Origin: Lysobacter antibioticus
Lineage (GTDB): Bacteria > Pseudomonadota > Gammaproteobacteria > Xanthomonadales > Xanthomonadaceae
NCBI RefSeq assembly: GCF_000731095.1
Contig: NZ_JMTZ01000014.1
Location: forward strand, 1-64,000
DNA length: 64,000 nt
Direction: 5' to 3'
Position 1 is the first letter of the stretch. Each line of letters starts with the position of its first letter. Positions 40,461-59,968 of the stretch are shown piece by piece. The notes under the pieces are model-generated. The model saw nothing but the letters and a program-made list of their open reading frames with translations. It was not told where the DNA came from and ran no database searches. The position numbers and the translations under genes were made by a program.

Positions 40461-43166
40461 ATGAATCAGCCGCTTGCCAGCTCTTTGCACGACCTGCTCC
40501 AGAACGACCCCGATCCGACCGAAACCCAGGAGTGGGTCGAGTCCGTACAGGCCGTCATCGCCCGCGACGGTGCCGAGCGCGCGCATCAGCTGCTCGAAGG
40601 CATGGTCGAAGTCACGCGCCGCGCCGGCGCGCACCTGCCGTTCCAGCCCACCACCGAATACATCAACACCATCCCGCCGCACCTGGAGGCCAAGAGCCCC
40701 GGCGACGCCGCGATGGAATGGCGGATCCGCTCGCTGATCCGCTGGAACGCCATGGCCATGGTGGTGCGCGCCAACCGCAAGCCCGGCGACCTCGGCGGCC
40801 ACATCGCCAGCTTCGCCTCGGCGGCCACCCTGTACGACGTCGGCTTCAACCACTTCTGGCGCGGCCCCGAAGGCGACCACCCCGGCGACCTCATCGGCAT
40901 CCAGGGCCACAGCTCGCCCGGCATCTACGCGCGCTCCTTCCTCGAAGGCCGCCTGAGCGAATCGCACCTCGACAACTTCCGCATGGAAGTCGACGGCCGC
41001 GGCGTCAGCTCCTACCCGCATCCCTGGTTGATGCCGGACTACTGGCAGGTGCCGACGGTGTCGATGGGCCTGGGCCCGATCAGCGCCATCTACCAGGCGC
41101 GCAACTGGAAATACCTGGAAGGCCGCGGCCTGATGCCGAAGTCCGACCGCAAGGTCTGGGCCTTCCTCGGCGACGGCGAGACGGACGAACCCGAATCGCT
41201 CGGCGCCATCTCGGTGGCCGGCCGCGAAGGCCTCGACAACCTGGTCTTCGTCATCAACTGCAACCTGCAGCGCCTCGATGGCCCGGTGCGCGGCAACGGC
41301 AAGATCATCCAGGAGCTGGAAGGCCAGTTCCGCGGCGCAGGCTGGAACGTCATCAAGACCGTCTGGGGCAGCTATTGGGACCCGCTGCTCGCGCGCGACA
41401 CCACCGGCAAGCTGCGCCAGCTGATGATGGAAACCGTCGACGGCGAATACCAGAACTGCAAGGCCTTCGGCGGCAAGTACACCCGCGACAACTTCTTCGG
41501 CAAATACCCGGAAACCGCCGCGCTGGTCGCCAACCTGTCCGACGACGACATCTGGCGCCTCAACCGCGGCGGCCACGACCCGCACAAGGTCTACGCCGCC
41601 TACCACGAGGCCGTGAACACCAAGGGCATGCCCACCGTGATCCTGGCCAAGACGGTCAAGGGCTACGGCATGGGCGCGTCGGGCGAATCGCTCAACCCGA
41701 CCCACGGCACCAAGAAGATGGACGACGAAGCCGTCCGCCTGTTCCGCGACCGCTTCAATATCCCGGTCAGCGACGAGCAGCTCAAAGACGGCGCCGTGCC
41801 GTTCTTCCACCCCGGCGAGAAGTCGCCGGAAGTCGAATACATGCTCGAGCGCCGCAAGGCCCTCGGCGGCTTCCTGCCGCAGCGCCGCCGCAAGGCCAGC
41901 ACCTCGCTCGCCGTGCCGCCGCTCGAAACCTATGACCGCCTGCTCAAGAGCACCGGCGAGCGCGAAATCAGCACCACCATGTCGTTCGTGCAGGCGCTCA
42001 ACATCGCCCTGCGCGACAAGCAGGTCGGCCCGCGCATCGTGCCCATCGTGGCCGACGAAGCCCGCACCTTCGGCATGGAAGGCCTGTTCCGCCAGCTCGG
42101 CATCTACGCCCCGCACGGCCAGAAGTACAAGCCGGTCGACCGCGACCAGCTGATGTACTACCGCGAAGACACCACCGGCCAGGTGCTGGAAGAAGGCATC
42201 ACCGAAGCCGGCGCGTTCTCCTCGTGGCTGGCGGCAGCCACCAGCTACAGCACCAACGACCTGCAGATGCTGCCGTTCTACATCTATTACTCGATGTTCG
42301 GCTTCCAGCGCATCGGCGACAGCGCCTGGCAGGCGGCGGACATGCGCGCGCGCGGCTTCCTGCTCGGCGCCACCGCCGGCCGCACCACGCTTAACGGCGA
42401 AGGCCTGCAGCACGAAGACGGCCACAGCATGGTCCAGGCCGGGTTGATCCCGAACTGCCGCAGCTACGACCCGACCTTCAGCTACGAAGTGGTGACCCTG
42501 CTCCAGCACGGCATGCAGCGCATGCTGACCGAGCAGCGCGACGAGTACTGGTACCTCACCCTGATGAACGAGAACTACACCCACCCGGATATGCCCGAGG
42601 GCAGCGCCGAGGGGATCATCAAGGGCATGTACCTGCTGAAGGACGCCGGCAAGCCGAAGAAGGGCGAACTGCGCGTGCAGCTGCTCGGCAGCGGCACCAT
42701 CCTGCGCGAAGCCATCGCCGCGGCCGAGTTGCTCGACAAGGACTTCGGCGTCACCGCCGACATCTGGTCCTGCCCGAGCTTTAACGAACTCGCCCGCGAC
42801 GCCACCGACGCCGAGCGCTACAACCGCCTCAACCCGGAAGCCAAGGCCCCGCGCAAGCCCTACATCACCGAGCTGCTGGAAGGCCGCCAAGGCCCGGCGA
42901 TCGCCGCGACCGACTACATCCGCATGTACCCGGAACAAGTCCGCGCCTTCGTGCCGATGCGCTACACCGTGCTGGGCACCGACGGCTTCGGCCGCAGCGA
43001 CACCCGCGCCAACCTGCGCCGCCACTTCGAAGTCGACCGCTACTACATCGCCCACGCCGCCATCGCGGCCCTGGCGGCGGAAGGCAAGATGACCGGCAAG
43101 GACGTGGCTCGGGCTATCAAGCAGTACAAGATTGATGTGGAGAAGCCGAATCCGTTGGGGGTTTGA
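40461..43166 (+). CDS. aceE: Pyruvate dehydrogenase E1 component, homodimeric type
   Basis: The 901-aa thiamine diphosphate enzyme decarboxylates pyruvate and passes the acetyl group to the E2 lipoyl domain. The ThDP motif is GDGETDEPESLGAI ... NCNLQRLDGPVRGNGKI. GHISSFASAATLYDVG-type and DGHSMVQAGLIPNC segments match E. coli AceE (887 aa). ATG 40461 is preceded by a weak ribosome site; the frame is open upstream into the REP cluster. No aceF or lpd follows, as an AT-rich island begins directly after it. Confidence 0.97.
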   Translation: MNQPLASSLHDLLQNDPDPTETQEWVESVQAVIARDGAERAHQLLEGMVEVTRRAGAHLPFQPTTEYINTIPPHLEAKSPGDAAMEWRIRSLIRWNAMAMVVRANRKPGDLGGHIASFASAATLYDVGFNHFWRGPEGDHPGDLIGIQGHSSPGIYARSFLEGRLSESHLDNFRMEVDGRGVSSYPHPWLMPDYWQVPTVSMGLGPISAIYQARNWKYLEGRGLMPKSDRKVWAFLGDGETDEPESLGAISVAGREGLDNLVFVINCNLQRLDGPVRGNGKIIQELEGQFRGAGWNVIKTVWGSYWDPLLARDTTGKLRQLMMETVDGEYQNCKAFGGKYTRDNFFGKYPETAALVANLSDDDIWRLNRGGHDPHKVYAAYHEAVNTKGMPTVILAKTVKGYGMGASGESLNPTHGTKKMDDEAVRLFRDRFNIPVSDEQLKDGAVPFFHPGEKSPEVEYMLERRKALGGFLPQRRRKASTSLAVPPLETYDRLLKSTGEREISTTMSFVQALNIALRDKQVGPRIVPIVADEARTFGMEGLFRQLGIYAPHGQKYKPVDRDQLMYYREDTTGQVLEEGITEAGAFSSWLAAATSYSTNDLQMLPFYIYYSMFGFQRIGDSAWQAADMRARGFLLGATAGRTTLNGEGLQHEDGHSMVQAGLIPNCRSYDPTFSYEVVTLLQHGMQRMLTEQRDEYWYLTLMNENYTHPDMPEGSAEGIIKGMYLLKDAGKPKKGELRVQLLGSGTILREAIAAAELLDKDFGVTADIWSCPSFNELARDATDAERYNRLNPEAKAPRKPYITELLEGRQGPAIAATDYIRMYPEQVRAFVPMRYTVLGTDGFGRSDTRANLRRHFEVDRYYIAHAAIAALAAEGKMTGKDVARAIKQYKIDVEKPNPLGV

Positions 43167-43179
43167 GCTAAACGTAAAA

Positions 43180-43216
43180 AATGAAAAAGAGCGGCCATTG
43201 GTCGCTCTTTTTCATT
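43180..43216. terminator. Bidirectional terminator after aceE
   Basis: A perfect 14-bp stem (AATGAAAAAGAGCG with its complement) encloses a 9-base loop and ends in a T-run. It starts 14 bases after the aceE stop. It marks the boundary with the AT-richer island. Confidence 0.9.
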
Positions 43217-43222
43217 CTGGCG

Positions 43223-43251
43223 TGGACAATAGTCTGTCCTTGCGCTATAGA
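43223..43251 (+). promoter_or_regulatory. Candidate sigma-70 promoter of the ABC-3C-like operon
   Basis: TGGACA (43223-43228) and TATAGA (43246-43251) are separated by 17 bases. They lie 64 bp upstream of the first small gene of the island operon and just beyond the aceE terminator. It was chosen by eye. Confidence 0.35.
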
Positions 43252-43314
43252 GTTCTCATGTTTTTATAGCTCTTCTGGATTCTTTAGACGCGTAGCACGC
43301 TGGGGGCGTGACGA

Positions 43315-43494
43315 ATGGACGCATTATCTACGTATATCTCCGAGATTGTCTCGTTTGTTGTTGGCGCTGTTTCAGGCTCGCTTCTGACCTTGCATTTCAA
43401 GAATCAGCGGGCCAGCGGCCAAGCAACTGTCGTGGATCAAAGTAAGACCCACGCTGGTGGCGATATAGTCGGACGCGACAAAATTAATAAGTGA
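43315..43494 (+). CDS. Small one-TM protein with AGGDIVGRDK motif (ABC-3C-like operon)
   Basis: The 59-aa protein begins MDALSTYISEIVSF. It has a single transmembrane helix (about residues 9-27), then a short polar tail containing AGGDIVGRDK at 47-56, three residues from the end. The same motif opens the next protein (residues 10-19), so the two probably share a binding partner or interact. It may be the membrane effector or anchor of the system. It is preceded by GGGGGCG and a candidate promoter and is too short for standard gene-length cut-offs. No named family was recognised. Confidence 0.72.
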   Translation: MDALSTYISEIVSFVVGAVSGSLLTLHFKNQRASGQATVVDQSKTHAGGDIVGRDKINK

Positions 43495-43520
43495 CACGGG
43501 CGCATCGGTAGGTGTCGCTA

Positions 43521-44078
43521 ATGAATGTAAACCAAAAAGGAGCCTCCGCAGGAGGCGATGTCGTGGGTCGCGACAAGATGGAGGTACATCATCATCCCGT
43601 CCCGCCGAAACTATCCAAGTTAGAGAAGCTCAAAGAGCGGCTATTGCAGGAAGTCGCCGATGGGCGTTGCTCGTCAGAAATTATTGAGCAGCTTCGATAT
43701 TTTCAGAAGAAGGTTCCTGAGGATGGTATCGCTGGCCTAGAGGCGAAGCTAGAAGCTTCTGGGCGCACTGCGCAGCTCATGATTGCTCTAGAAATGAAAG
43801 AGCAGTTCGCTAAGCTGTTAGAAAAGTGGTCCCTCTATGCATCCGCGCAAGAGATATTTGCGCATCTTCTTGCGATGGCTGAATACAAGTATTCACACCA
43901 GATATTTCCTCTGGTGTCAGAGGTAGGGCCAGTTGAGTTTGACGAGCTAATTGACCAAAAAATAATAGTCCCTGCGATAGACGAACTAGGTATAGATGTA
44001 TTTGCTCTAGATCATCGCACAGCAATGGGCATGATTTACTGGTTGGCTGAGCAGTGCAGATTGAGGTGGCATGTATGA
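43521..44078 (+). CDS. ABC-three component system C-terminal-domain-like protein
   Basis: The 185-aa protein opens with AGGDVVGRDK (residues 10-19), then a charged helical region (LSKLEKLKERLLQEVADG). The C-terminal half includes HQIFPLVSEVGP, FDELIDQKIIVPAIDEL and GMIYWLAEQCRLRWHV, which resembles the C-terminal domains (CTDs) of ABC-3C systems. ATG 43521 is chosen over GTG 43512. Its stop overlaps the next start (ATGA). In ABC-3C systems the CTD is fused to varied effector domains; here no large effector is attached. The assignment is from memory of the family and is not verified. Confidence 0.65.
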   Translation: MNVNQKGASAGGDVVGRDKMEVHHHPVPPKLSKLEKLKERLLQEVADGRCSSEIIEQLRYFQKKVPEDGIAGLEAKLEASGRTAQLMIALEMKEQFAKLLEKWSLYASAQEIFAHLLAMAEYKYSHQIFPLVSEVGPVEFDELIDQKIIVPAIDELGIDVFALDHRTAMGMIYWLAEQCRLRWHV

Positions 44079-44593
44079 ACTACCTCACTTTTCAACCTGC
44101 GTTCGATGTATTTCATACAGAGTTCCGCTTTCTGAGACTGCGAAGGTTGATGGAGTCAGGCATTGCTTGGCACTACGACCAACTCCGCATCGCCGATTTC
44201 TATATGTTGTTCTTCTTCCGTCTCCAAGATGTTCGTCTTGCGCGGCAGCACACCTCGATAAAGAAATTTGCTCACAAGGTCGGCGAGGGGCGCTATGAAA
44301 GGCAGCCCGATAATGCGTTGATCTTCGGCCGTATGGAGCGAATACAGAGAGCTGCCATTGGCACTTTGATTGCGAAAGAATTCTTTGACGCTGAGTCTTT
44401 CAAGAATGAACTAGTTGTCGAGACGGATCTTGTCGAGCCGGAGGCCGTGTCGCAGAGAATTGATGCGATAAATCGACAGGAGACCGAAATAATGCAGTTT
44501 ATTCAGGTGCTAATAGCAGACTATGCCTTATTGGGGCCTAATGGACTAAAGGATAGGACTGGGCTACTGGAGTATCGTTATGACGCGATTTGA
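44075..44593 (+). CDS. ABC-three component system middle component-like protein
   Basis: The 172-aa protein starts MNYLTFQPAFDVFHTEFR and continues LRIADFYMLFFFRLQDVR, with a later FGRMERIQRAAIGTLIAKEF. This pattern matches the ABC-3C middle component families, probably MC5. ATG 44075 overlaps the upstream stop, and its end overlaps the ATPase start by 14 bases, so the three are a tightly coupled operon. In ABC-3C systems it links the ATPase to the CTD protein. AT-rich codon usage differs from the flanking chromosome. Confidence 0.65.
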   Translation: MNYLTFQPAFDVFHTEFRFLRLRRLMESGIAWHYDQLRIADFYMLFFFRLQDVRLARQHTSIKKFAHKVGEGRYERQPDNALIFGRMERIQRAAIGTLIAKEFFDAESFKNELVVETDLVEPEAVSQRIDAINRQETEIMQFIQVLIADYALLGPNGLKDRTGLLEYRYDAI

Positions 44594-46481
44594 TCCGAGT
44601 CTAATGATTCGCCGGATGGTTATTGAGCGGGCCAATAATAAAGTATACGATGAGAGGTTTCACGCGGGAGTTAACATAATTCGTGGAGAAAACTCGTCCG
44701 GAAAATCAACAATACTAAATTTTATTCATTATGGTCTGGGCGGTGACGTAAATGAATGGAGTGAAACGGCTCTCTTGTGCGAGCGGGTAACGATAGAAGT
44801 CCAACTGAGTGGAAAAGTGGCTACGCTCTCGCGCTTGATTTCCGCAAGTCCGCGACAGGCGATGGAGGTGTTCTTCGGCAATTATGATGATGCTGTGAAC
44901 GCCGGCCGATCGCAATGGGAGCGTTACCCATATATCCGATCGCAATCAAAAGAGAGTTTTTCACAGGTATTATTTAGATTGCTTGATATACCCGAGGCCG
45001 CAAGTGAGGATAGTGGCAACATCACTATGCATCAGGTAATGAGGTTGCTCTATGGTGATCAGCTAAGCCCAGTTGACGAATTATTCGCTCATGAGGGGTT
45101 TGATAATTCAAAGATTCGAGAGGCCGTCGGGAGGTTGCTTTGTGGGGCCTTCGACAACGAATTGTACGGGAATGAACTCGAAATTCGAGATGTTGGAAAA
45201 CGATATGATTCAGTTGCGGCGGAGCTTAATAGCCTCTACAAAGCTCTTGGTCAGGCTGGTCATGATCTAACACTTGATTGGGTGGCAGAGCAACGCGTTA
45301 GAAATGAAGCAGAACGGCAAAGCGTTGAGAATGAGTTGACAAGGATTCAAAAAGAGGCCGCGGGGCAAAGCTCCAGCCCAACGTTGAAAGCCCAAGAGGA
45401 AACTTATTTACAGTTAGTAGATAAACAGAAGAAAGTCGCGGCGCTAAGGGAAGAAAAGGATTCCATCGAGTTGGCCATGGCAGATTCCGACGCTTTTATT
45501 CGGAGTTTGGAAGAAAAGCTAACTGCCCTGAAGGACTCCGCTCTAATTGCGCAGGAGATAGGGACGGCTCAGTTTACAGCGTGTCCAGCTTGCTATGCCG
45601 CAATAATCGCAGGTGAGCACGGGGTTTGCGCGCTATGTAAGGCGCCGTATGACGACGACATTGCATCAGAGCGAATCGGGGGGTTGATAAATGAAACAGC
45701 TCTTCAGTTACGTCAGTCAAAACTCTTGCAAGAAGACAGGGTGACCCGTTTTGCTGAGGCGGAATCTTCATTCCTAGTTGCTGCGTCTGAATGGCAAGCA
45801 GCTGCGAACAGATACACGGCAGTTCAAAAACGCCCTACTAACGAAAACGAACATCGGCTCAATGAGCTTTATAAGCGGCTCGGTTACTTAGATAGGCGGG
45901 ATGAAGATATAACAGAAAAGGCGAAAATGATTGAGGTTGTAAACGCCTTGTCTACTCAGAAAAGAGAGCTAAATGATCGACTGTCTTGGCTGAAGGGCCA
46001 GAATGAGAAGCTGGTTTATACTCAAAGGGCGCGTCTAGCTGATGCTTATATGTCGATATCTGATAATGTCAGGATATTGCTCTCTAAAGATCTTAAGCGC
46101 CAAGATTCGTTTGAGAATCCACAAAAAGTGGATTTCAGCTTTGCGGACAATAAAATTAGTGTGGACGGGCATACCTATTTTTCGGCAAGTTCTCGAGCCT
46201 TCCTGAAAAGCGCTTTTCTCTTTGGATTCCACTCCGCCGCCACTCAGAAAAGTTATTTTAGGCACCCTCGTTTTGTCATGTTAGACACCATTGAGGATAA
46301 GGGTATGGAAGCCCCTCGGAGCCAAAATTTTCAACGTCTGGTAGTGGAGTTTTCTGAGGCGGCGCCGTCACAGAGTCAAGTGATATTAGGCACGGCAATG
46401 ATCGCCGAGGAGCTCAATAACGACGCTTATGTCGTGGGCAGATTCTACACCCGAGACAATCGCTCACTGGATTTCGGCTAG
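44580..46481 (+). CDS. ABC-3C-like ABC ATPase (Rad50/SMC-type with CxxC hook)
   Basis: The 633-aa ATPase has Walker A GENSSGKST at residues 36-44 and Walker B FVMLDTIEDKG with Asp569 and Glu572. A long coiled-coil region (about 200-500) is broken by a zinc-hook-like pair of CxxC motifs (C335/C338 and C350/C353). FSASSRAFLKSAFLFG just before Walker B may be the signature motif. The layout is Rad50/RecN-like, as in the ABC-3C ATPases, but with a very short hook. ATG 44580 overlaps the middle component gene. Codon usage is AT-rich, consistent with transfer. Confidence 0.82.
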   Translation: MTRFDPSLMIRRMVIERANNKVYDERFHAGVNIIRGENSSGKSTILNFIHYGLGGDVNEWSETALLCERVTIEVQLSGKVATLSRLISASPRQAMEVFFGNYDDAVNAGRSQWERYPYIRSQSKESFSQVLFRLLDIPEAASEDSGNITMHQVMRLLYGDQLSPVDELFAHEGFDNSKIREAVGRLLCGAFDNELYGNELEIRDVGKRYDSVAAELNSLYKALGQAGHDLTLDWVAEQRVRNEAERQSVENELTRIQKEAAGQSSSPTLKAQEETYLQLVDKQKKVAALREEKDSIELAMADSDAFIRSLEEKLTALKDSALIAQEIGTAQFTACPACYAAIIAGEHGVCALCKAPYDDDIASERIGGLINETALQLRQSKLLQEDRVTRFAEAESSFLVAASEWQAAANRYTAVQKRPTNENEHRLNELYKRLGYLDRRDEDITEKAKMIEVVNALSTQKRELNDRLSWLKGQNEKLVYTQRARLADAYMSISDNVRILLSKDLKRQDSFENPQKVDFSFADNKISVDGHTYFSASSRAFLKSAFLFGFHSAATQKSYFRHPRFVMLDTIEDKGMEAPRSQNFQRLVVEFSEAAPSQSQVILGTAMIAEELNNDAYVVGRFYTRDNRSLDFG

Positions 46482-46539
46482 TAATGTAAAAGAATTTCTG
46501 GGTTATTTGATCTTTCTTTTGGGCAGTGCAGGGTGCTTT

Positions 46540-47163
46540 ATGAAGTCGAGAGATCTTTTAACGACGCCGGTTCTGATCGTTACAAATTACGTAATAGAGC
46601 CTTATTCTGGCGGAGGGTTTCTACATCGATTTACGCCCGAAACAACAAGCACGGTTTATAAATTTATCGCGAATCAAGAGCCGGAGCTTGTGGTAGGGGA
46701 GAGGTACAATATCGGCTATAGGGTCGAGGATGGGGAAAATGTAGTCGATATGTCGGCTACAGCCAAGGCAAATGACGTAAATAAGGACGTTAGCTTTTAT
46801 GTAGCGAGTTTGATTGGAGCTCAACTGCGAGAAACAGAGCTGAACAAGTCTCTACAAAGAGTGAGCTATAGAGCTTCTGATGGCATTTATTTGGGTAAAA
46901 AGTATGCGTGGCGCATATACGGCATGATGATCGCTCGGGATACTTTTGACGAATATTTGACTTGCATCGGACATCCATCCGTTCCGTGTATTACGGATGA
47001 AAGCCCATCGGTGGCCTATAGGGAGGACGGTCTTAAGGAAGCCATGGAGAAGTTGATAATATCTTCGGTGTTAGTTGGAGGAAATCGTTTTAAATCTAAT
47101 CTGCTTCCATCAAAAAAGTGGTTTCAGATAAAAGGAATTACGGCAATTACTGATAAGAAGTAG
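46540..47163 (+). CDS. Unrecognised protein, candidate fifth component of the ABC-3C-like operon
   Basis: The 207-aa product (MKSRDLLTTPVLIVTNYV...) has no recognised domain, signal peptide or membrane segment. GERYNIGYRVEDGENVVDMSA looks beta-rich. The open frame extends upstream across the ATPase stop to 46429, adding a hydrophobic stretch (FLGYLIFLLGSAGCF), but the upstream codons overlap the ATPase gene and the start is uncertain. It is in the same AT-rich block and direction as the operon, so it could be an effector, immunity or DNA-binding component. Confidence 0.6.
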   Translation: MKSRDLLTTPVLIVTNYVIEPYSGGGFLHRFTPETTSTVYKFIANQEPELVVGERYNIGYRVEDGENVVDMSATAKANDVNKDVSFYVASLIGAQLRETELNKSLQRVSYRASDGIYLGKKYAWRIYGMMIARDTFDEYLTCIGHPSVPCITDESPSVAYREDGLKEAMEKLIISSVLVGGNRFKSNLLPSKKWFQIKGITAITDKK

Positions 47164-47238
47164 TTTTCTGGTCTTGAGCTTGGCCCTGCAGTTTTTCCGC
47201 CTTCGTTTATAGTAGTATTGCTAAGTGGTGCTGGTGTA

Positions 47239-47275
47239 TTACGTTTATCGTAATTACGAATATCGTAATTGACGA
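47239..47275. promoter_or_regulatory. Repeated ATCGTAATT operator-like sites
   Basis: A perfect 12-bp palindrome TCGTAATTACGA (47248-47259) lies between a partial ATTACG copy (47239) and a second copy ATCGTAATTGACGA at 47262. The copies are spaced 15 bp apart, so they fall on one face of the helix every one and a half turns. They lie upstream of the decayed XRE gene and probably were its operator. Confidence 0.45.
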
Positions 47276-47360
47276 GTCTCGTCTGCCGGGTGATTCTTTT
47301 TGCTATCGCTTAAGTTAAAGCGAACGACTGTTCTTTAAGTCTGGGCAAAAGGAGCTGGGC

Positions 47361-47622
47361 ATGACCATAGGTCTACCGCAAGAAACCGCTGCCGTGCGGA
47401 TCAACCGCTACGAGAAGGCGGTCCATGACGCCGATCTGGCGACCGCGCGCCGCATCGCCGAAGCCTTGGGCGTCCCGCTCGCCTTCCTCTATGCCGAAAC
47501 CGACACCATGGCCGAGGCTATCCTGACCTTGGGCCCTGTTGTTCAAGCCCGAGCAGCGCAAGGCCGTGGCCGACCTCAAGGCTCGCCTAACGGAGTCGGT
47601 CGCCACCGGCAGCAAGGCTTGA
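47361..47622 (+). pseudogene. Decayed XRE-family regulator (N-terminal deletion and frameshift)
   Basis: A good ribosome site (AAAGGAG) and ATG 47361 are kept, but translation enters directly at GLPQETAAVRINRYEKAVHD, the second half of an XRE helix-turn-helix, so the first 25 or so residues are missing. After ADTxxMAEAILTLG-like sequence the frame shifts by +1 (GGGCCCTGTTGTTC): the family C-terminus FKPEQRKAVADLKARL continues in the next frame to a TGA at 47620-47622. The unshifted frame would run to 47666 without family similarity. Confidence 0.7.
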
Positions 47623-47677
47623 CCGGGGGCGGTCCAGTGGGCAGGGCAGGCGAGGGCGGCGACTGAGCCGCCTCGCC

Positions 47678-48619
47678 TCAAGTTACTGAGCCGACTAGTT
47701 CACCCATAAGATCGTCGATGGGATCAAGACTCTTCTGGTAGCGCCGCTCAAATACTTGCGAGCGGTGGTAGTCCAAGTAAGACGCCTGCTTCTCGCTAAA
47801 CAAGCCGCAGTTCCGCCCTTGGCGCAGGTTCAGACCCAAGCGCTTTATCACGTCGGCCGGCAGGTCACTGGTGACGATGAGGCTGCCTTTGCCTTCGAAG
47901 GTGATCCAGCCGCGATCAAACAGCAGGTCCGCTTGTGGTGTCAGCAGCATTCCGTTGTGGGCGTCGGTGCGTTCGTCGCCACTCGTGCAGGCTGCCCAGG
48001 GCTTGATATGGCTGGCGCGAAGAAAGCGCAGATCTTGAATGCCGGTCAGCCGGCACTGCTTCTCGAGGCCGAGCAGGCGCCGACGGAACAAGGACTGCTT
48101 GTTGCGAACTTCGATTAGTCGCGAAGAGACGGTGCTGTCGAGCGTCTTATACGGGGTCTGGGGCTCTGCGACCTTGTTGCCGGCAAAGAAGGCGCCGTCT
48201 TCTACTGGGACTAGGCGAAAGACGATCGCGGTCCGCAAAGCGCCGCTAGTGTCCGGCGTATTGGGCCTCAGGTAGGACGACTGTTTGACGAACTCGCCGA
48301 GGTAACGATATGGCTTGCCGCGTCCCATCATCTGAAACAGCAGCAGCCTCTTGCCGTCGGCTACATGGTTCTCTATGGCCCGGTTGCCGCCTGTGTACTG
48401 CATGTCCCCGCTTTGGCCTTCACCAAAGTAGTGAAAGACACGTTCGTCATCCCAGAAGTCCTCGTAGCCGTGCGACTTACCTGCCTCGCCGGTGAAGGCG
48501 ATGATGAAGGGCTGGTCTTTTGGCGTAGAGATCCCGCCTTGCCGTTGGCCACCCAGCAAGCCATGAATTTCGTTGCCGCGGTGATAAAGCGCGCCAACTT
48601 CAAAAGGAAGGTCGATCAC
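47678..48619 (-). CDS. HNH endonuclease with SRA-like N-terminal domain (type IV restriction-like)
   Basis: The 313-aa protein has an N-terminal domain (about residues 1-135: GALYHRGNEIHGLLGGQRQGG, HYFGEGQSGDMQ) like the SRA-type head domains of ScoMcrA-like nucleases, which read modified DNA. The C-terminal HNH_2 domain (about 180-250) contains CRLTGIQDL, ASHIKPWAA, NGMLLTPQADLLFDRG. It probably cuts modified foreign DNA. The start is GTG 48619; no ATG is available in frame. It follows an XRE controller gene, 43 bp upstream, in one probable operon. Confidence 0.8.
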   Translation of the reverse strand: MIDLPFEVGALYHRGNEIHGLLGGQRQGGISTPKDQPFIIAFTGEAGKSHGYEDFWDDERVFHYFGEGQSGDMQYTGGNRAIENHVADGKRLLLFQMMGRGKPYRYLGEFVKQSSYLRPNTPDTSGALRTAIVFRLVPVEDGAFFAGNKVAEPQTPYKTLDSTVSSRLIEVRNKQSLFRRRLLGLEKQCRLTGIQDLRFLRASHIKPWAACTSGDERTDAHNGMLLTPQADLLFDRGWITFEGKGSLIVTSDLPADVIKRLGLNLRQGRNCGLFSEKQASYLDYHRSQVFERRYQKSLDPIDDLMGELVGSVT

Positions 48620-48662
48620 TGGGGCTTCGCCATGGCTGCGTCCGATGCGGGCGTAGAGGTAC

Positions 48663-49022
48663 TTAGTCTTCCAACAGGCCTAGCAACATCTTTTGTTTCT
48701 TGGCGGGCAGTCGACGGTAGCGGGCCAGCAATGCCTGCTCGTCCTGACTGTCTGCCGCCCGAGGGGACGGCTCACTGGCTTTGCGGACCTTATCGGTCTT
48801 TGTGGACCCGGACTTCTTCCCCGTGATCAGCCAATCCAGCGTCACGTTGTCCTGGGCGAACACCTGCAAGAACAACTCAAGGTGCCCCAGATTGGGCTCG
48901 GCCCGCCCGGTCTCCCACTTGGAGACAGTCGCCCCTGTGACCTCGAGTTCGAAGCCCAGCTTCTCCTGGGACCAGCCGCGAGCTTCGCGCAGGCCACGCA
49001 ACCTAGAACCGAAAGTATCCAT
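48663..49022 (-). CDS. XRE-family controller protein
   Basis: The 119-aa protein has an N-terminal XRE helix-turn-helix (residues 5-60, with ARGWSQEKLGFELEVTGATV and SKWETGRAEPN) and a short charged C-terminus. Its gene lies directly upstream of the HNH nuclease gene on the same strand, like the controller proteins of restriction systems that set the timing of nuclease expression. TTTCCA-TAT-TGGAAA dyads lie in front of it. Confidence 0.88.
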   Translation of the reverse strand: MDTFGSRLRGLREARGWSQEKLGFELEVTGATVSKWETGRAEPNLGHLELFLQVFAQDNVTLDWLITGKKSGSTKTDKVRKASEPSPRAADSQDEQALLARYRRLPAKKQKMLLGLLED

Positions 49023-49050
49023 GGCCGGAGTCTGACCAAATCGGCAAGGA

Positions 49051-49097
49051 CTTTCCTTTCCAAAATGGTTGACTTTTGTGTTTCCATATTGGAAAGT
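49051..49097. promoter_or_regulatory. Double TTTCCA dyad, probable controller operator
   Basis: TTTCCATATTGGAAA (49081-49095) is a near-perfect dyad. A second related site, TTTCCAAAATGG, begins at 49057, 24 bp away. They sit 30-75 bp upstream of the controller start on the minus strand and upstream of the XRE remnant on the plus strand, as expected for a cooperative controller-type operator. Confidence 0.5.
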
Positions 49098-49161
49098 TAG
49101 GGTGTGTCTGATCTGGACATGTCAGCTGGTTCTACTTGCCGCCTGCTTAAGGAGTAGATGC

Positions 49162-49416
49162 ATGGATGCAGTCCTAAGTGCTCGTCTCGAAAATTCCCGA
49201 TTCTTTCGTTACTTGAAGCCAGGTGAAGAGCCCGAACTGGCCCTTCTGCAAAGCATCGCAGACGAGTTGGGGGTGCCGGTCGCCTACCTACTCACGGATT
49301 CGGATCTGCTTGCCCAGATGGTGCTGGCCTTTGGATTGCTGTCGGAAGGGCAGCAGCGCAGGGTTCTGAATCAGATCAAGCGGCAGATATTTCCGCCGCC
49401 TAAGTCTCGCTGCTGA
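49162..49416 (+). CDS. Short XRE-like remnant lacking the DNA-binding helix
   Basis: The 84-aa product (ATG 49162, AAGGAG seven bases upstream) keeps only the C-terminal part of XRE regulators: SIADELGVPVAYLLTDSDLL and AFGLLSEGQQRRVLNQIKR. The expected N-terminal helix-turn-helix is absent, replaced by about 25 unrelated residues. It resembles the remnant at 47361. It may be a pseudogene or a small dimerising inhibitor. Confidence 0.55.
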   Translation: MDAVLSARLENSRFFRYLKPGEEPELALLQSIADELGVPVAYLLTDSDLLAQMVLAFGLLSEGQQRRVLNQIKRQIFPPPKSRC

Positions 49417-49888
49417 TTCTGTTGCGATGCAGGTGCTGTGCGTGAGTAAGTGCCGCACTAGATGAAAGATCGTAACGAGTGATTTGTCGATTCGCTACCG
49501 TGATCTTTAGCGCGTAGTGCTGTCACTTATTAGGAATGCGCAACTCTTAGTAGCCGTTGATTCGAACGTCGAAGGTGCATACGCTTCTATCGGATGGCAA
49601 TGAGCCGCCGGTGTGCTGACTCGATGCATCTGATCGATGCATACGAAGTTCCCAATGAAATGAAGGGCGATATGGAAGTCGCGCGTGTTCTGTCTAATTT
49701 CCGAGGTTTCGCCATCAGTATTCGGGCAGCTGTCTTTTCGTTCAGCGCCGGCTGTGTCTCTGCATCTAGGTGGATCGTGAAAGAGCGATGCACACCGCTC
49801 AAGCCGCGACCCCATCTCATCTAATTGTTCCCCGCAACGCGCAGGCTCGCTCGCCTGTGCCGTAGTTTCGTCAACAAGGAGTTGCACC
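49417..49888. other. Intergenic region without recognised gene
   Basis: No protein of convincing composition, RNA gene or REP element is seen. ORFs here on either strand have a composition typical of shadows. AAGGAG at 49877 belongs to the next gene. Confidence 0.5.
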
Positions 49889-50827
49889 ATGAACGACCAG
49901 TTACAGATTGCTGCAGTTGGATGTGCAGAGCTGGGTAACCGCTCGGAGTCCTCACGGCCGAAGTGCACAGCTAAACAGAACGCCAGGAAATGGATCGCTG
50001 TCGCTGGAGGCATGCTTCTAATGGCCTCAATGCAAGCACAAGCCATAGGAAAGTACTGCTTCGGATGCTCGGCCGCAGAGATGAACCAGCTTGCGTGGGA
50101 GAGTGTTACCGAAATGGCCAGCCAAGGTCCGCTGTATGCGTTAGACCTCCGAAACGGCGTAGTCCGAAAGTACGAGTATCGAAATAATGTGACGGGAAGC
50201 TGGAACCCGGAGTTCGACCCGTTCGAGCAGTGGGCGGAGGAAGTGCCCGTCGAATCCAACGTTGCTGCAGGCGTAGCGGACGTCGGAAATTACATGCGCG
50301 CAGCGTCGCATGAATCCATAATTCTTCCGCCTAATACCCCGGGTATGCCCAGTGATGTGTACGAGGCAATAACGACATCGTCGTACGATGACGACATCGC
50401 ATACTGGATCAACCTCAATTCTACCGGTGACTTCTATAACCGCGCGGCTGACGCCCTTCAGCTGATTAGCACGTGGTTCGGATCAGAGGGGCTGCGTGTC
50501 TATGTGAAGTTTCAGTGGCAAGATGGCTCGTCTGCTATGTACGGATGGGACTCAGTGCAAAAGACTTGGGTGCGCATACCGAACACGGCGCGTGATGGGC
50601 GCAAAAATTTGATTCCAGAGTCGAAAGAACAGCTCAGCTCAAAGACATATCTATTCCCGAACGCTACCGTCGGCGGGAGCGATGCTGCTGATGATTTCTA
50701 CGATATGTGGAACTATATTAAAGGCATGGAGGTGCCCGTCATTGATGGTACGGGTGGTCTTGGCGGTTACGGCTACAAGATGGTTTGCACCCCTGACAGA
50801 TGCGACATCTACATCCAGCCGCGCTAA
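49889..50827 (+). CDS. Probable secreted protein of unknown function
   Basis: The 312-aa protein has a long basic N-region and a hydrophobic stretch WIAVAGGMLLMASMQAQA, giving a signal peptide with cleavage near residue 52. The mature part starts IGKYCFGCSAAEM and has several aromatic and Asp/Ser-rich segments (WQDGSSAMYGWDSVQKTWVR). Four cysteines (CFGC, CTPDRC) suggest disulfides. No family was recognised. AAGGAG precedes ATG 49889. A lipoprotein gene follows 50 bp downstream, and the two look like a functional pair. Confidence 0.7.
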   Translation: MNDQLQIAAVGCAELGNRSESSRPKCTAKQNARKWIAVAGGMLLMASMQAQAIGKYCFGCSAAEMNQLAWESVTEMASQGPLYALDLRNGVVRKYEYRNNVTGSWNPEFDPFEQWAEEVPVESNVAAGVADVGNYMRAASHESIILPPNTPGMPSDVYEAITTSSYDDDIAYWINLNSTGDFYNRAADALQLISTWFGSEGLRVYVKFQWQDGSSAMYGWDSVQKTWVRIPNTARDGRKNLIPESKEQLSSKTYLFPNATVGGSDAADDFYDMWNYIKGMEVPVIDGTGGLGGYGYKMVCTPDRCDIYIQPR

Positions 50828-50877
50828 ATGAAACCAGGTGGCGTGGATGTCTCCGCGCCACCCTCAGGGAATCGACT

Positions 50878-51855
50878 ATGCATCGAGCTACTTGTTTGGG
50901 ATGGATTCTTCTGCTGGCCGCATGCTCGGACCCGGGGCAGGTGCCCGATAAGGATCCCCCGCGAACGCCGGCCGATACGCCTTTACAGAACGAAGCAGCA
51001 ACGCCTGAAGGCGTGCAACCGCTTAAAGCTGATTTGCCCAAGCGTGGCGCCACCCTCATGCAAGCGATACCCGCGTTGCGGGAGAAGATCGCTAAGGGGG
51101 ACCCGGTGGCTTCGTGCCAGCTGGCGCGTGAATTCGACTTCTGCGTCGGCGCAGAGGACAACGCCGCGTATCTCAGTCGGATGGAGGCATTTCGCAGGGC
51201 GCCGAAGTCTGCTGCGGAAGCCAGAACCGATACGGTTTCGACCATGACCGACTTGGCGAGAATCCGCGGAGAATATTGCACCGGGGTCTCTTCGATCTCG
51301 CCCGCGGAGCGAATTTCGCTCTGGCGTCAGGCCGCGCTGAAGGGTCATGTGTCATCGATGCTTCAGTACGGCTCTGGCTTGGCGTTCGGGAACAATCAGG
51401 CCCTTGCGACATTGGACGAGCTTCGGGTCTATAAGGGCGAAGGGCCCGGCCTCGTGCAACGGGTAGCCAAGAACGGTAGCTTTCAAGCCAACCTGATGCT
51501 TGCCCGTGCTTATGCGCCGCAGTTGACCGCGCCCAACATGACGCCCTTGCTGCGCCAGGCTGTAACGCGGAGTTCCGCGACATCGCTGGCGTATTACCGG
51601 CTCGCAAAGGAACTTCGGTCAGCCACGACAGAATCTGCGCCTTCGGAACTTGCGCTCGACACCGAGATGAAAACGCTTCAGTGGTCGATGTCGCCGCAGG
51701 AGGTCGCAGCGTCGGAACAGGAGTATCGAAAGCTTCGCGGCGAGCTCAACAGCGGTAACAAGGCGGTCGTGGACATCGAGGCTCTCAACAACGCCGACGT
51801 GAATCAGCCCGTTCCCGGAATGGAGCTGTGCACGGACGGCGGTGTTCTGCGCTGA
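50878..51855 (+). CDS. Lipoprotein, possibly helical-repeat (Sel1-like)
   Basis: The 325-aa protein has a lipobox (WILLLAACSD) with the lipidated Cys at residue 16, followed by a proline-rich linker. Helical segments ALKGHVSSMLQYGSGLAFG and VAKNGSFQANLMLARAYA resemble Sel1-type alpha repeats, but weakly. ATG 50878 matches the signal peptide. It is co-directional with the secreted protein and may bind or guard against it; this is inference. Confidence 0.72.
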   Translation: MHRATCLGWILLLAACSDPGQVPDKDPPRTPADTPLQNEAATPEGVQPLKADLPKRGATLMQAIPALREKIAKGDPVASCQLAREFDFCVGAEDNAAYLSRMEAFRRAPKSAAEARTDTVSTMTDLARIRGEYCTGVSSISPAERISLWRQAALKGHVSSMLQYGSGLAFGNNQALATLDELRVYKGEGPGLVQRVAKNGSFQANLMLARAYAPQLTAPNMTPLLRQAVTRSSATSLAYYRLAKELRSATTESAPSELALDTEMKTLQWSMSPQEVAASEQEYRKLRGELNSGNKAVVDIEALNNADVNQPVPGMELCTDGGVLR

Positions 51856-58399: not shown

Positions 58400-58480
58400 G
58401 AACCGATCGAGTCGAGACCGGCGAGTCATCGCCATCGCCATCGTCGCGTAGTCCGAACTTTTTTTGCCATGGAGGCATCG

Positions 58481-59104
58481 ATGCGAACCATAGTCCCTCT
58501 AATCTTTTCCGCGCTGCTGGCGACGACAGTGTCCGGTTGCTACGACACCGGGTTCCCGACGACCAAAGAGCTCGAAGCGATGTACCGTCGCAACCCCGCG
58601 CCGAAGCAGACCTACCGGGTCACACTTAGCGTCGCGGAGGCGCCGGGGCCGTTCGCCAAAGCAGAAGGCTCGATCCGCTACGAGGCGCCGAACTGCGGCT
58701 ATATCGCCGAAGGGATCTCCGGTGTGTCGAAGGTTCCTTACTATTACTTGCCGATCAAGTTCAGCAAAATCGGTGAGAACACCTTTGCCGCCACGATCCA
58801 TGCGGATGCGATGCTGGATGAGGATTATCTCGGCAGGGGCGTATGTCGCTGGCAACTGATGAGTGTGACTTCCTCGATCCGGGCCACCGGCGCCAAGACG
58901 GACATCGAATACGTCGTGGGTTTGAGCGGCGATGAGTTGCGGGGGCTAAAGGCTGACACTAGCTACTTTGTAAAGGACGAGTATCCGGGCAACGATCCGT
59001 CCGAGCGCAGCGATTTGGGCAATGCCGATCCCAATTGGTACAGGCCGGAACTACAGGGGCAACTGTTCAGCGCCACCCTGACGCCAGCGGCGGTGACACC
59101 CTGA
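58481..59104 (+). CDS. Duplicated lipoprotein A, candidate lipase immunity protein
   Basis: The 207-aa protein has a lipobox (LATTVSGC) with lipidated Cys at residue 20. The mature part has KELEAMYRRNPAPKQTY, VAEAPGPFAKAEGS and DAMLDEDYLGRGVCRW, all closely shared with the lipoprotein at 59312. GGAGG sits five bases before ATG 58481, so the in-frame ATG at 58469 is not used. It is the first of two paralogues directly upstream of the lipase. Lipase effectors of Xanthomonas T4SS have such lipoprotein immunity partners, so immunity is proposed from context. Confidence 0.78.
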   Translation: MRTIVPLIFSALLATTVSGCYDTGFPTTKELEAMYRRNPAPKQTYRVTLSVAEAPGPFAKAEGSIRYEAPNCGYIAEGISGVSKVPYYYLPIKFSKIGENTFAATIHADAMLDEDYLGRGVCRWQLMSVTSSIRATGAKTDIEYVVGLSGDELRGLKADTSYFVKDEYPGNDPSERSDLGNADPNWYRPELQGQLFSATLTPAAVTP

Positions 59105-59225: not shown

Positions 59226-59311
59226 AGGCCCGGCCTTGACCCGGGTCGGGACCGTCGCGGTACTGCCGCCCCCGGCCCGTCCCTTAATCATCTCTTGCCA
59301 TGGAGGCATCG

Positions 59312-59968
59312 ATGCGCGGTGAGCTTCGCACCTTTTGTCTTCTGCTGGCGTTGAGTACTTCCGCCTGTAGCGCTCCCGAGACTGCAATGACTTCCGACAA
59401 ATCCTCGCCCGATTCCGCTCCCTCGACGGCTGAGATGGAGGCCAAGTACAAACGCAATCCGGCTCCGAAGCAGCCGTACCAGATTGTGCTGAAGGTAGCG
59501 GATGCGCCGGGGCCGTTCGCCAAGGTGGAGGGATTCGCAAGCTATGAGGCTACGGAGTGCAGCTACATTCCTGATCCGATCGCCGGCGTGCCGCTGAAGC
59601 CTGGGAGCGATATAGCGATGGAGTTCTCCAAGGTCGACGAATCCACGTATACCGCGACGATTTATGCCGACGCGATGCTCGATGAAGACTATCTTGGTAG
59701 GGGCATCTGCCATTGGCGCCTGATGAGCGTGAACACTTGGGTTAAAGCCACTGGCGCAAAAACCGATATCAGCTATGTTGCGACCTTGTGGAGCGATGAT
59801 CTGATCGCCCAGAAGGTACGTACGAATTACTACGTGAAGCAGGCTTATCCAGGCAATGATCCGGATGAGTTCTCCGATCACGGCGAAGTGGACCGGAGCA
59901 AGTACAAACCTGAATTCCAGGATCAATTGTTCACTATCAGCTTGACGCCGAAGGCTAGGACGCCATGA
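59312..59968 (+). CDS. Duplicated lipoprotein B, candidate lipase immunity protein
   Basis: The 218-aa protein has a lipobox (LALSTSACSAP). EMEAKYKRNPAPKQPY, DAPGPFAKVEG and DAMLDEDYLGRGICHW mirror the upstream paralogue. ATG 59312 has the same GGAGG-CATCG-ATG context as copy A. Its stop overlaps the lipase start (ATGA), so it is coupled to the lipase and is the likeliest cognate immunity protein. Divergence between A and B suggests a second specificity or dosage. Confidence 0.8.
   Translation: MRGELRTFCLLLALSTSACSAPETAMTSDKSSPDSAPSTAEMEAKYKRNPAPKQPYQIVLKVADAPGPFAKVEGFASYEATECSYIPDPIAGVPLKPGSDIAMEFSKVDESTYTATIYADAMLDEDYLGRGICHWRLMSVNTWVKATGAKTDISYVATLWSDDLIAQKVRTNYYVKQAYPGNDPDEFSDHGEVDRSKYKPEFQDQLFTISLTPKARTP

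Follow-up and report, generated by a model that had tools for sequence, protein, structure and literature searches.

ABC-3C systems were reportedly defined in a 2020 classification of ABC ATPases, and an N-terminal effector fused to the CTD is usual in them, yet outside the three-component definition. We analyzed a 64,000-nucleotide stretch of Lysobacter antibioticus DNA (contig NZ_JMTZ01000014.1, positions 1 to 64,000; the window) and found that an operon in it is, judging from its sequence, an ABC-3C (Lamassu-superfamily) system, and a variant in that the effector position is unfused. A 59-amino-acid peptide with one transmembrane (TM) helix is encoded just before a protein with a CTD9 domain, and both carry a matching motif of ca. 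20 residues, C-terminally in the peptide and N-terminally in the CTD9 protein, whose two copies vary together among related loci. The sequence data make it quite probable that this motif pairing couples the two proteins.

In Lamassu (DdmABC; LmuA–LmuC–LmuB), LmuA has an N-terminal enzymatic effector, and a degenerate Walker B was described for LmuB (PMC10586767). Oligomerization activates the fused effectors in Lamassu (PMC12799240), and an addendum reports, citing preprints, that activation sets LmuA free and that LmuA assembles into a homotetramer, which turns its nuclease domain on (PMC12409362). In bacterial amyloid signalling (BASS; NLR and Bell), a short matched motif occurs C-terminally in a small TM effector and N-terminally in a sensor-side protein, the genes are adjacent, and there are several motif families (PMC7889193). 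In these NLR/Bell pairs and in fungal NWD2/HET-S, the motif on the sensor side is matched by that of a membrane effector, and in the fungal pair the membrane-active partner, whose motif is C-terminal, is templated by it (PMC7889193). Bacterial amyloid motifs are linked to NLRs in PMC7889193, PMC8086366, PMC12261475, PMC7885112, and PMC12881547, and the BASS3/RHIM/PP core is G-(I,V)-Q-(I,V)-G (PMC7885112).

The locus resembles ABC-3C systems with CTD9 and middle component MC5 in that the CTD, the middle component, and the ABC ATPase occur in the same order and score above curated cut-offs. It differs from them in that no effector domain was recognized before CTD9; instead, a short motif is present there that is matched by a separate TM peptide. 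The LmuB-like ATPase, its zinc motif, its Walker B without the usual Glu, and the three-gene order are shared with Lamassu, whereas a separate membrane peptide is proposed here in place of the enzymatic effector of LmuA. The BASS-type layout (matched motif, TM effector, and adjacent genes) was found in 73 of 91 loci with a CTD9 match, or in 72 of 85 by the score threshold described below. It also recalls the cell death that amyloids signal in fungi and animals. Unlike in BASS, the predicted sensor is a Rad50-like ABC-3C complex and not an NLR, the BASS3/RHIM/PP core is absent, and the hosts are mostly Pseudomonadota and Bacteroidota, not filamentous Actinobacteria and Cyanobacteria. In contrast to fungal NWD2/HET-S, no HeLo/HELL domain was recognized, and 52 of 73 small partners have just 52–69 amino acids. 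The literature search returned no paper combining Lamassu with amyloid and none containing the letters of the motif, while ABC-3C, abbreviated or spelled out, occurred in two papers. The matched-motif membrane peptide was unmentioned in the literature searched; since the founding ABC-3C paper was outside this search, an earlier mention is possible. The ABC-3C core is thus already known, and the matched-motif membrane peptide appears to be a variant of it.

Components of the ABC-3C core

All five open reading frames (ORFs) named in the original prediction, which had assigned the locus to ABC-3C by family features, were present in the sequence. Four of them form a tight operon on the plus strand (43315–46481) that encodes the TM peptide (43315–43494), the CTD9 protein in the LmuA position (43512–44078, starting at GTG 43512 or ATG 43521; 188 amino acids), MC5 in the LmuC position (44075–44593; 172 amino acids), and a Rad50/SMC-like, LmuB-like ABC ATPase (44580–46481; 633 amino acids). 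Profile searches bore out the assignment, with scores of the CTD and the middle component far above the curated cut-offs. Residues 75–186 of the CTD9 protein matched Pfam PF20285 (E = 2.8e-30, 105.6 bits, cut-off 27.9), and the middle protein matched MC5 (PF20291; E = 1.6e-43, 148.9 bits, cut-off 25). The ATPase matched Pfam AAA_23 (35.7 bits, cut-off 27) and PADLOC LmuB (E = 1.3e-38), and its best 15 PADLOC matches were all LmuB. PADLOC scored only the ATPase; the other four proteins of the locus, including the CTD9 protein, were unscored. No second Pfam family and no recognizable effector domain N-terminal to CTD9 was found in the CTD9 protein, and Pfam and NCBIfam showed no effector domain in the CTD9 and MC5 proteins. 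NB-ARC and NACHT, the families of NLR sensors, were absent from the Pfam matches of the five proteins.

Among 68 related ATPases, the cysteines of the zinc motif CPxC..CxLC, the G, N, and GK of Walker A, and the Walker B Asp were conserved in all. The residue after this Asp was T, I, N, or G in 65 of 68, replacing the usual Glu, and is Thr in the ATPase of the window, which agrees with the degenerate Walker B reported in LmuB (PMC10586767). A Glu three residues beyond the Asp was conserved in 67 of 68, and the Gly of the following KG in 68 of 68. Sequence searches of solved structures gave no match for the ATPase at E 0.01 or for MC5 at E 1, and the CTD9 profile gave four weak, unconvincing matches.

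Covariation of the motif between the TM peptide and the CTD9 protein

The C-terminus of the TM peptide reads VVDQSKTHAGGDIVGRDKINK and the N-terminus of the CTD9 protein reads (M)NVNQKGASAGGDVVGRDKM. The putative effector-side motif DQSKTHAGGDIVGRDK lies at 43435–43482 and the putative receptor-side motif NVNQKGASAGGDVVGRDK at 43524–43577, both on the plus strand. The original prediction had noticed AGGD(I/V)VGRDK in both proteins, and this likeness is above chance. The DNA pattern for GGD(I/V/M)VG(R/S)DK had four exact matches in 398 genomes of the phylum, and these fell in two genomes (that of the window and G382), in each of which the TM peptide and the CTD9 protein were matched once. The same pattern, which misses variant motifs, was absent from 385 genomes belonging to the class of G181. 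What that prediction had missed is that the two copies are a covarying pair and so a probable coupling device.

CTD9 loci were collected from plasmids (8 of 9 matches), five genomes including that of the window, contigs of GTDB genomes (69 loci), and IMG/VR (9). The resulting 91 loci comprised 73 pairs with a small upstream protein whose tail resembles the start of the CTD9 protein, eight loci with a multi-TM protein, and ten that were set aside. The last were repeats (L081 and L093 of L018 and L033), partial loci (L069 and L099), one at a contig edge (L052), one motif-less locus cut before its downstream gene (L053), two with a hydrolase (L014 and L015), one decayed (L008), and one with a broken CTD9 frame (L012). 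A genome match below the cut-off (G206; L020) was excluded, a weak ORF candidate of L067 (score 18) was taken out of the pairs, and two CTD9 pairs found later in viral contigs (L108 and L156) are outside the counts. The 73 pairs came from Pseudomonadota (39), Bacteroidota (19), and Fibrobacterota (1), and 14 were from hosts without a name. The matched motif is the recurring hallmark of this subfamily. The gene order recurred in many genomes: where at least 3 kb of downstream sequence was available (66 pairs), single-sequence tblastn found the ATPase in 66 and MC5 in 61. Neither of the two refuting outcomes named in the original prediction, a lack of profile matches and a lack of recurrence, was therefore observed. 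The distribution was patchy, with CTD9 above the cut-off in 5 of 398 genomes, that of the window included, and nine plasmid records had a CTD9 relative.

The motif differed among loci (GGDIVGRDK, GGDQAGRDI, GRDNIGGD, GGHIAGGN, GKVIGGDDNS, and NNGNIEKQVNIGNITGN), and the copy in the partner differed in the same way. Examples of tail and N-terminus are GGDQAGRD and QGDQAGRD in L013, GKVIGGDDNST and GKVVAGDDNST in L064, GGHIAGGN and GGHIAGGN in L080, GKIKKQVNVQNNSGKI and GKIDRQVVVQDNSGAI in L084, and NNGNIEKQVNIGNITGN and NNGNIERQVNTTGN in L089. Weak pairs also occurred (L085, score 31; L092, 43; L075, 44).

In 35 non-redundant pairs (CTD9 cores less than 60% identical), the cognate score averaged 63.9 versus 34.3 (standard deviation 14.0) for non-cognate combinations, and none of 20,000 permutations reached the observed sum. 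The cognate partner ranked first in 19 of 35 and among the top three in 27. Similarity of the tails followed that of the N-termini when CTD9 core identity was accounted for (partial Mantel r = 0.62; 0 of 5000 permutations). When the comparison was limited to partners sharing less than 35% core identity, the cognate score was reached in 11 of 723 non-cognate combinations. An eight-residue core could be placed in 27 of the 35 pairs, and four of its positions were tested for agreement within pairs; three agreed in 16, 20, and 21 of 27 pairs (0, 4, and 23 of 5000 permutations, respectively), and the fourth did not agree beyond permutation (1092 of 5000). Where residues were identical, their codons were as well in 381 of 852 cases (45%), near the 42% expected from local codon use. 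The likeness of the motifs therefore seems to be kept at the protein level, and a recent DNA duplication of the motif is unsupported by this comparison.

Features of the TM peptide

The TM peptide is labeled 'hypothetical protein' in NCBI records and had no match in Pfam, NCBIfam, PADLOC, or PHROGs; its relatives gave sub-threshold matches only. In a tblastn search with the peptide (E up to 0.1), 5 of 72,556 plasmid records matched, all five beside CTD9, and no match was obtained in phage records. Based on the longest start, the small partners had 52–69 amino acids in 52 of 73 loci and 52–78 in 58. In 71 of the 73 small proteins, Lys and Arg were more abundant after the best hydrophobic segment than before it, so the tail with the motif is probably cytosolic. 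The TM segments contained 73 GxxxG motifs versus 29.4 in shuffled sequences, which favors helix packing. The peptide is proposed to be the membrane effector.

In five Bacteroidota loci (L083, L085, L087, L089, and L090), the small partner was longer, at 113–118 amino acids (192 from the longest start in L087), and by eye these proteins recall a Bell-type domain followed by the motif. Their tails are quite different in L083, L089, and L090, and the start of CTD9 changes accordingly; this was weaker in L085 and L087. The 115-amino-acid protein of L089 had one sub-cut-off Pfam match, no NCBIfam match, and no plasmid match, and its likeness to Bell would be one of layout only.

Loci without the motif

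With a threshold score of 40 against the tails of other loci, 72 of 85 loci had both the motif and the peptide, 11 had neither, and two disagreed, namely L008, which is decayed and whose peptide frame is broken, and L082, which has a divergent pair itself. In all eight motif-less loci with enough sequence (L016, L051, L055, L059, L062, L067, L078, and L095), a multi-TM protein was encoded directly behind the ATPase, whereas this was the case in none of the 73 pairs. L014 encodes CTD9 as a fusion with an alpha/beta hydrolase, and a hydrolase-like ORF occupies the corresponding position in L015. Loci without the motif thus appear to hold another protein in the effector position. In a quick ATPase tree, the eight multi-TM loci formed one clade beside and among the paired loci, and the motif and the peptide were probably lost together in one replacement event. 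The multi-TM proteins belong to one family of about 226–254 amino acids, and that of L016 had no Pfam or NCBIfam match over the cut-off.

Similar motifs in viral contigs

The exact motif pattern was found in seven viral-contig stretches, four of which had already been found by CTD9; L106 and L108 also have CTD9, while L110 does not. In L110 (2525–2905 and 3366–3743, both minus strand), a 125-amino-acid protein ends in VNVDGDVVGRDKT, and one gene on, a 126-amino-acid protein starts with VTFGDIGGEVDIGGDVVGRDKIT. The latter scored 24.9 bits against TCAD2 (cut-off 27). Searches of phage records and viral contigs yielded no additional relatives of the L110 protein. A variant pattern led to L152 (3156–3829, plus strand), where ISFGDSAQVGVGGDMVGGDKGG ends one protein and MGIEFGDKAQVEIHGDMVGGSKIT starts the next, and no Pfam family over the cut-off was found in these proteins. 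A third pattern had seven matches, mostly in unrelated proteins; one of them, L156, is a CTD9 pair. In L153 (413–1159, minus strand), a single viral-contig protein contains a hydrophobic segment, the motif GGDMVGGDK, and a Nudix domain. Based on L110 and L152, the matched-motif adaptor principle may be wider than CTD9.

Fifth gene and genomic surroundings

The fifth ORF (46540–47163, plus strand) had been predicted to be a second extra component of the system besides the TM peptide. The TM peptide is recurrent, as shown above, whereas relatives of the fifth protein were absent from the other 90 CTD9 loci (at E 1e-3; 65 of the other 72 pairs had at least 3 kb downstream), and it matched three records of small plasmids among 72,556 plasmid records. 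It was therefore rejected as a component of the module, and from its distribution it is a passenger, that is, cargo with small-plasmid relatives. The relatives, 44% identical, lie on an 8.1-kb Acinetobacter plasmid and a 3.2-kb Edwardsiella plasmid (two records). All three align from residue 38, which probably places the true start at 46540, at a distance of 58 bp from the ATPase stop. The predicted gene overlaps accordingly hold for CTD9 and MC5 (4 nt) and for MC5 and the ATPase (14 nt), but that of the fifth ORF with the ATPase requires the upstream ATG at 46429. A pattern scan of viral contigs gave no relatives of the fifth gene, with genome collections lying outside the search for it.

The predicted strong aceE terminator and the deviating base composition were both seen. 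A 17-bp hairpin at 43180–43216 (plus strand), 3' of aceE, has a fold energy of −28.4 kcal/mol (z = −6.9), and beyond aceE, G+C falls from about 0.67 to 0.45–0.51 in 1-kb intervals of 43.0–47.5 kb, compared with 0.62–0.73 in the first 42 kb. Homology with 19 of 19 loci of the same genus (1.5-kb flanks) ends at 43164–43213, that is, at the aceE stop or at most 50 bp beyond it, so that the hairpin marks the left edge of a cargo slot. In six of eight longer stretches, homology resumes at 47345–47346, past 3.3–8 kb of different cargo. The slot (43167–47345) lies between the aceE stop and a small helix-turn-helix (HTH) ORF (47346 on).

Nine of 20 cargo ORFs in the relatives were scanned. They scored as RmrA (two genomes), Septu PtuA/PtuB, PDC-M55 (two genes), and a cytosine methyltransferase and, with weaker scores, a helicase and a PDC-M38/PD-Lambda-5 component. 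The module of the window thus appears to occupy a slot where relatives keep defence-like genes. Two relatives have second copies of the aceE 3' end near aceE (L117:669–767 and G019:C2:4586737–4587028), as if elements had integrated there.

An HNH endonuclease gene (47678–48619, minus strand) and an HTH repressor gene (48663–49022, minus strand) adjoin the slot, with G+C below that of the chromosome. In another patch of lower G+C, the ORFs 58469–59104 and 59300–59968 are alike by eye, both starting with MEASMR, and the ORF after the latter carries a lipase-like GHSLGG. The Rfam scan of 43000–51000 and the tRNA scan of the window gave no match, and the promoter scan gave 5 sites versus 5.7 in shuffled sequence.

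Discussion

From the components, their recurrence, the matched covarying motifs, their joint absence, and the topology tendency described above, we infer binding, templating, membrane damage, and defence as follows. The LmuB-like ATPase, MC5, and the CTD9 protein would be the DNA-sensing part, and the effector would be unfused from it, as the one-TM peptide encoded just upstream of the CTD9 gene. When the complex senses foreign or aberrant DNA, the CTD9 protein would be released or clustered, as reported for LmuA. Crowded N-terminal motifs of CTD9 proteins would then nucleate a homotypic stack, probably cross-beta (amyloid-like), which would recruit and template the peptide tails at the membrane. 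Through their glycine-rich TM helices, the peptides would cluster and damage the membrane, and the phage or plasmid would be stopped together with the cell. On balance, we slightly favor this reading as a whole, namely an operon of the abortive-infection type with a split effector joined to CTD9 by cross-beta templating. Its parts differ in strength. The module is likely to act against phages or plasmids, and the defence-like genes in the slot of relatives were counted for this; that the peptide harms the membrane is somewhat likely; and the pairing, by analogy with the amyloid systems, could with equal chances be cross-beta templating or not.

Several observations weigh against this reading. 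The motif is polar and glycine-rich, and the RHIM-type core G-(I,V)-Q-(I,V)-G was absent from all 73 tails and all 73 N-termini. The cognate N-terminus was outscored by a non-cognate one in 16 of 35 rows. The best-matching small ORF was taken where there were several, and seven partners were added by eye, both of which slightly favor the claim; the permutations leave some effect of kinship in the covariation. As for the joint absence, the threshold of 40 exceeds the 95th percentile for shuffled regions (37; mean 29.2) but not their maximum (42). Independent events are few, since the eight multi-TM loci are one clade; the Fisher p-values are inflated by this kinship, overstate the evidence, and are not used as probabilities.

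Some of these points suit an unlikely but substantial alternative, in which the two motifs make a one-to-one contact, for example by strand pairing, the TM peptide serves only to anchor the sensor complex to the membrane, and any killing lies elsewhere in the complex. The covariation requires just a specific contact, and the shortness and polarity of the motif, as well as its lack of the RHIM core, fit this view. However, neither CTD9 nor MC5 has an effector domain by Pfam and NCBIfam that could do the killing, a contact between two copies of one motif suits self-stacking better than lock-and-key, and elsewhere a multi-TM protein or a hydrolase replaces the peptide, which points to an effector position. 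The missing domain also bears on a role of the peptide as an inhibitor or immunity protein that holds the resting CTD9 protein at the membrane until DNA sensing frees it, since there would be no remaining effector domain to restrain. Such a role fits the adjacency of the genes in 73 pairs, where only neighbors were searched, and in the reverse search with the peptide, which gave the same in 5 of 5 plasmid records. With the existence of loci that lack the motif and the peptide and have another membrane protein, we consider it improbable.

Still less probable is a non-defensive function, in which a factor tethered to the membrane would serve DNA repair or plasmid maintenance. The Rad50-like ATPase and the nine plasmid records with a CTD9 relative are compatible with it, but the slot holds Septu, RmrA, and other defence-scoring genes in relatives, and the distribution is spotty (5 of 398 genomes). 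The position of the two copies at the facing ends of adjacent genes could also come from gene fission or tandem duplication, leaving a functionless likeness. This explanation has hardly any weight, because codon sharing is barely above expectation, the motifs drift together within loci, and both are missing together.

If the split-effector reading is correct, it would explain how an ABC-3C system without a recognized enzymatic effector acts. A 2021 commentary on amyloid signalling asks whether NLR-independent signalling amyloids exist in fungi and bacteria (PMC7889193). It is possible, though we place it a little on the doubtful side, that the module provides such a case: prion-like (cross-beta) templating by a DNA-sensing immune complex of the SMC/Rad50 type in ordinary unicellular bacteria, with amyloid signalling independent of NLRs and a minimal effector of one TM helix and a motif. 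The dozens of natural matched pairs are short enough for synthesis, so that seeding and specificity can be tested together. For the Lamassu family, the modes of attaching an effector to the sensor would then include, besides a fused enzyme and a separate multi-TM protein, a motif-matched peptide.

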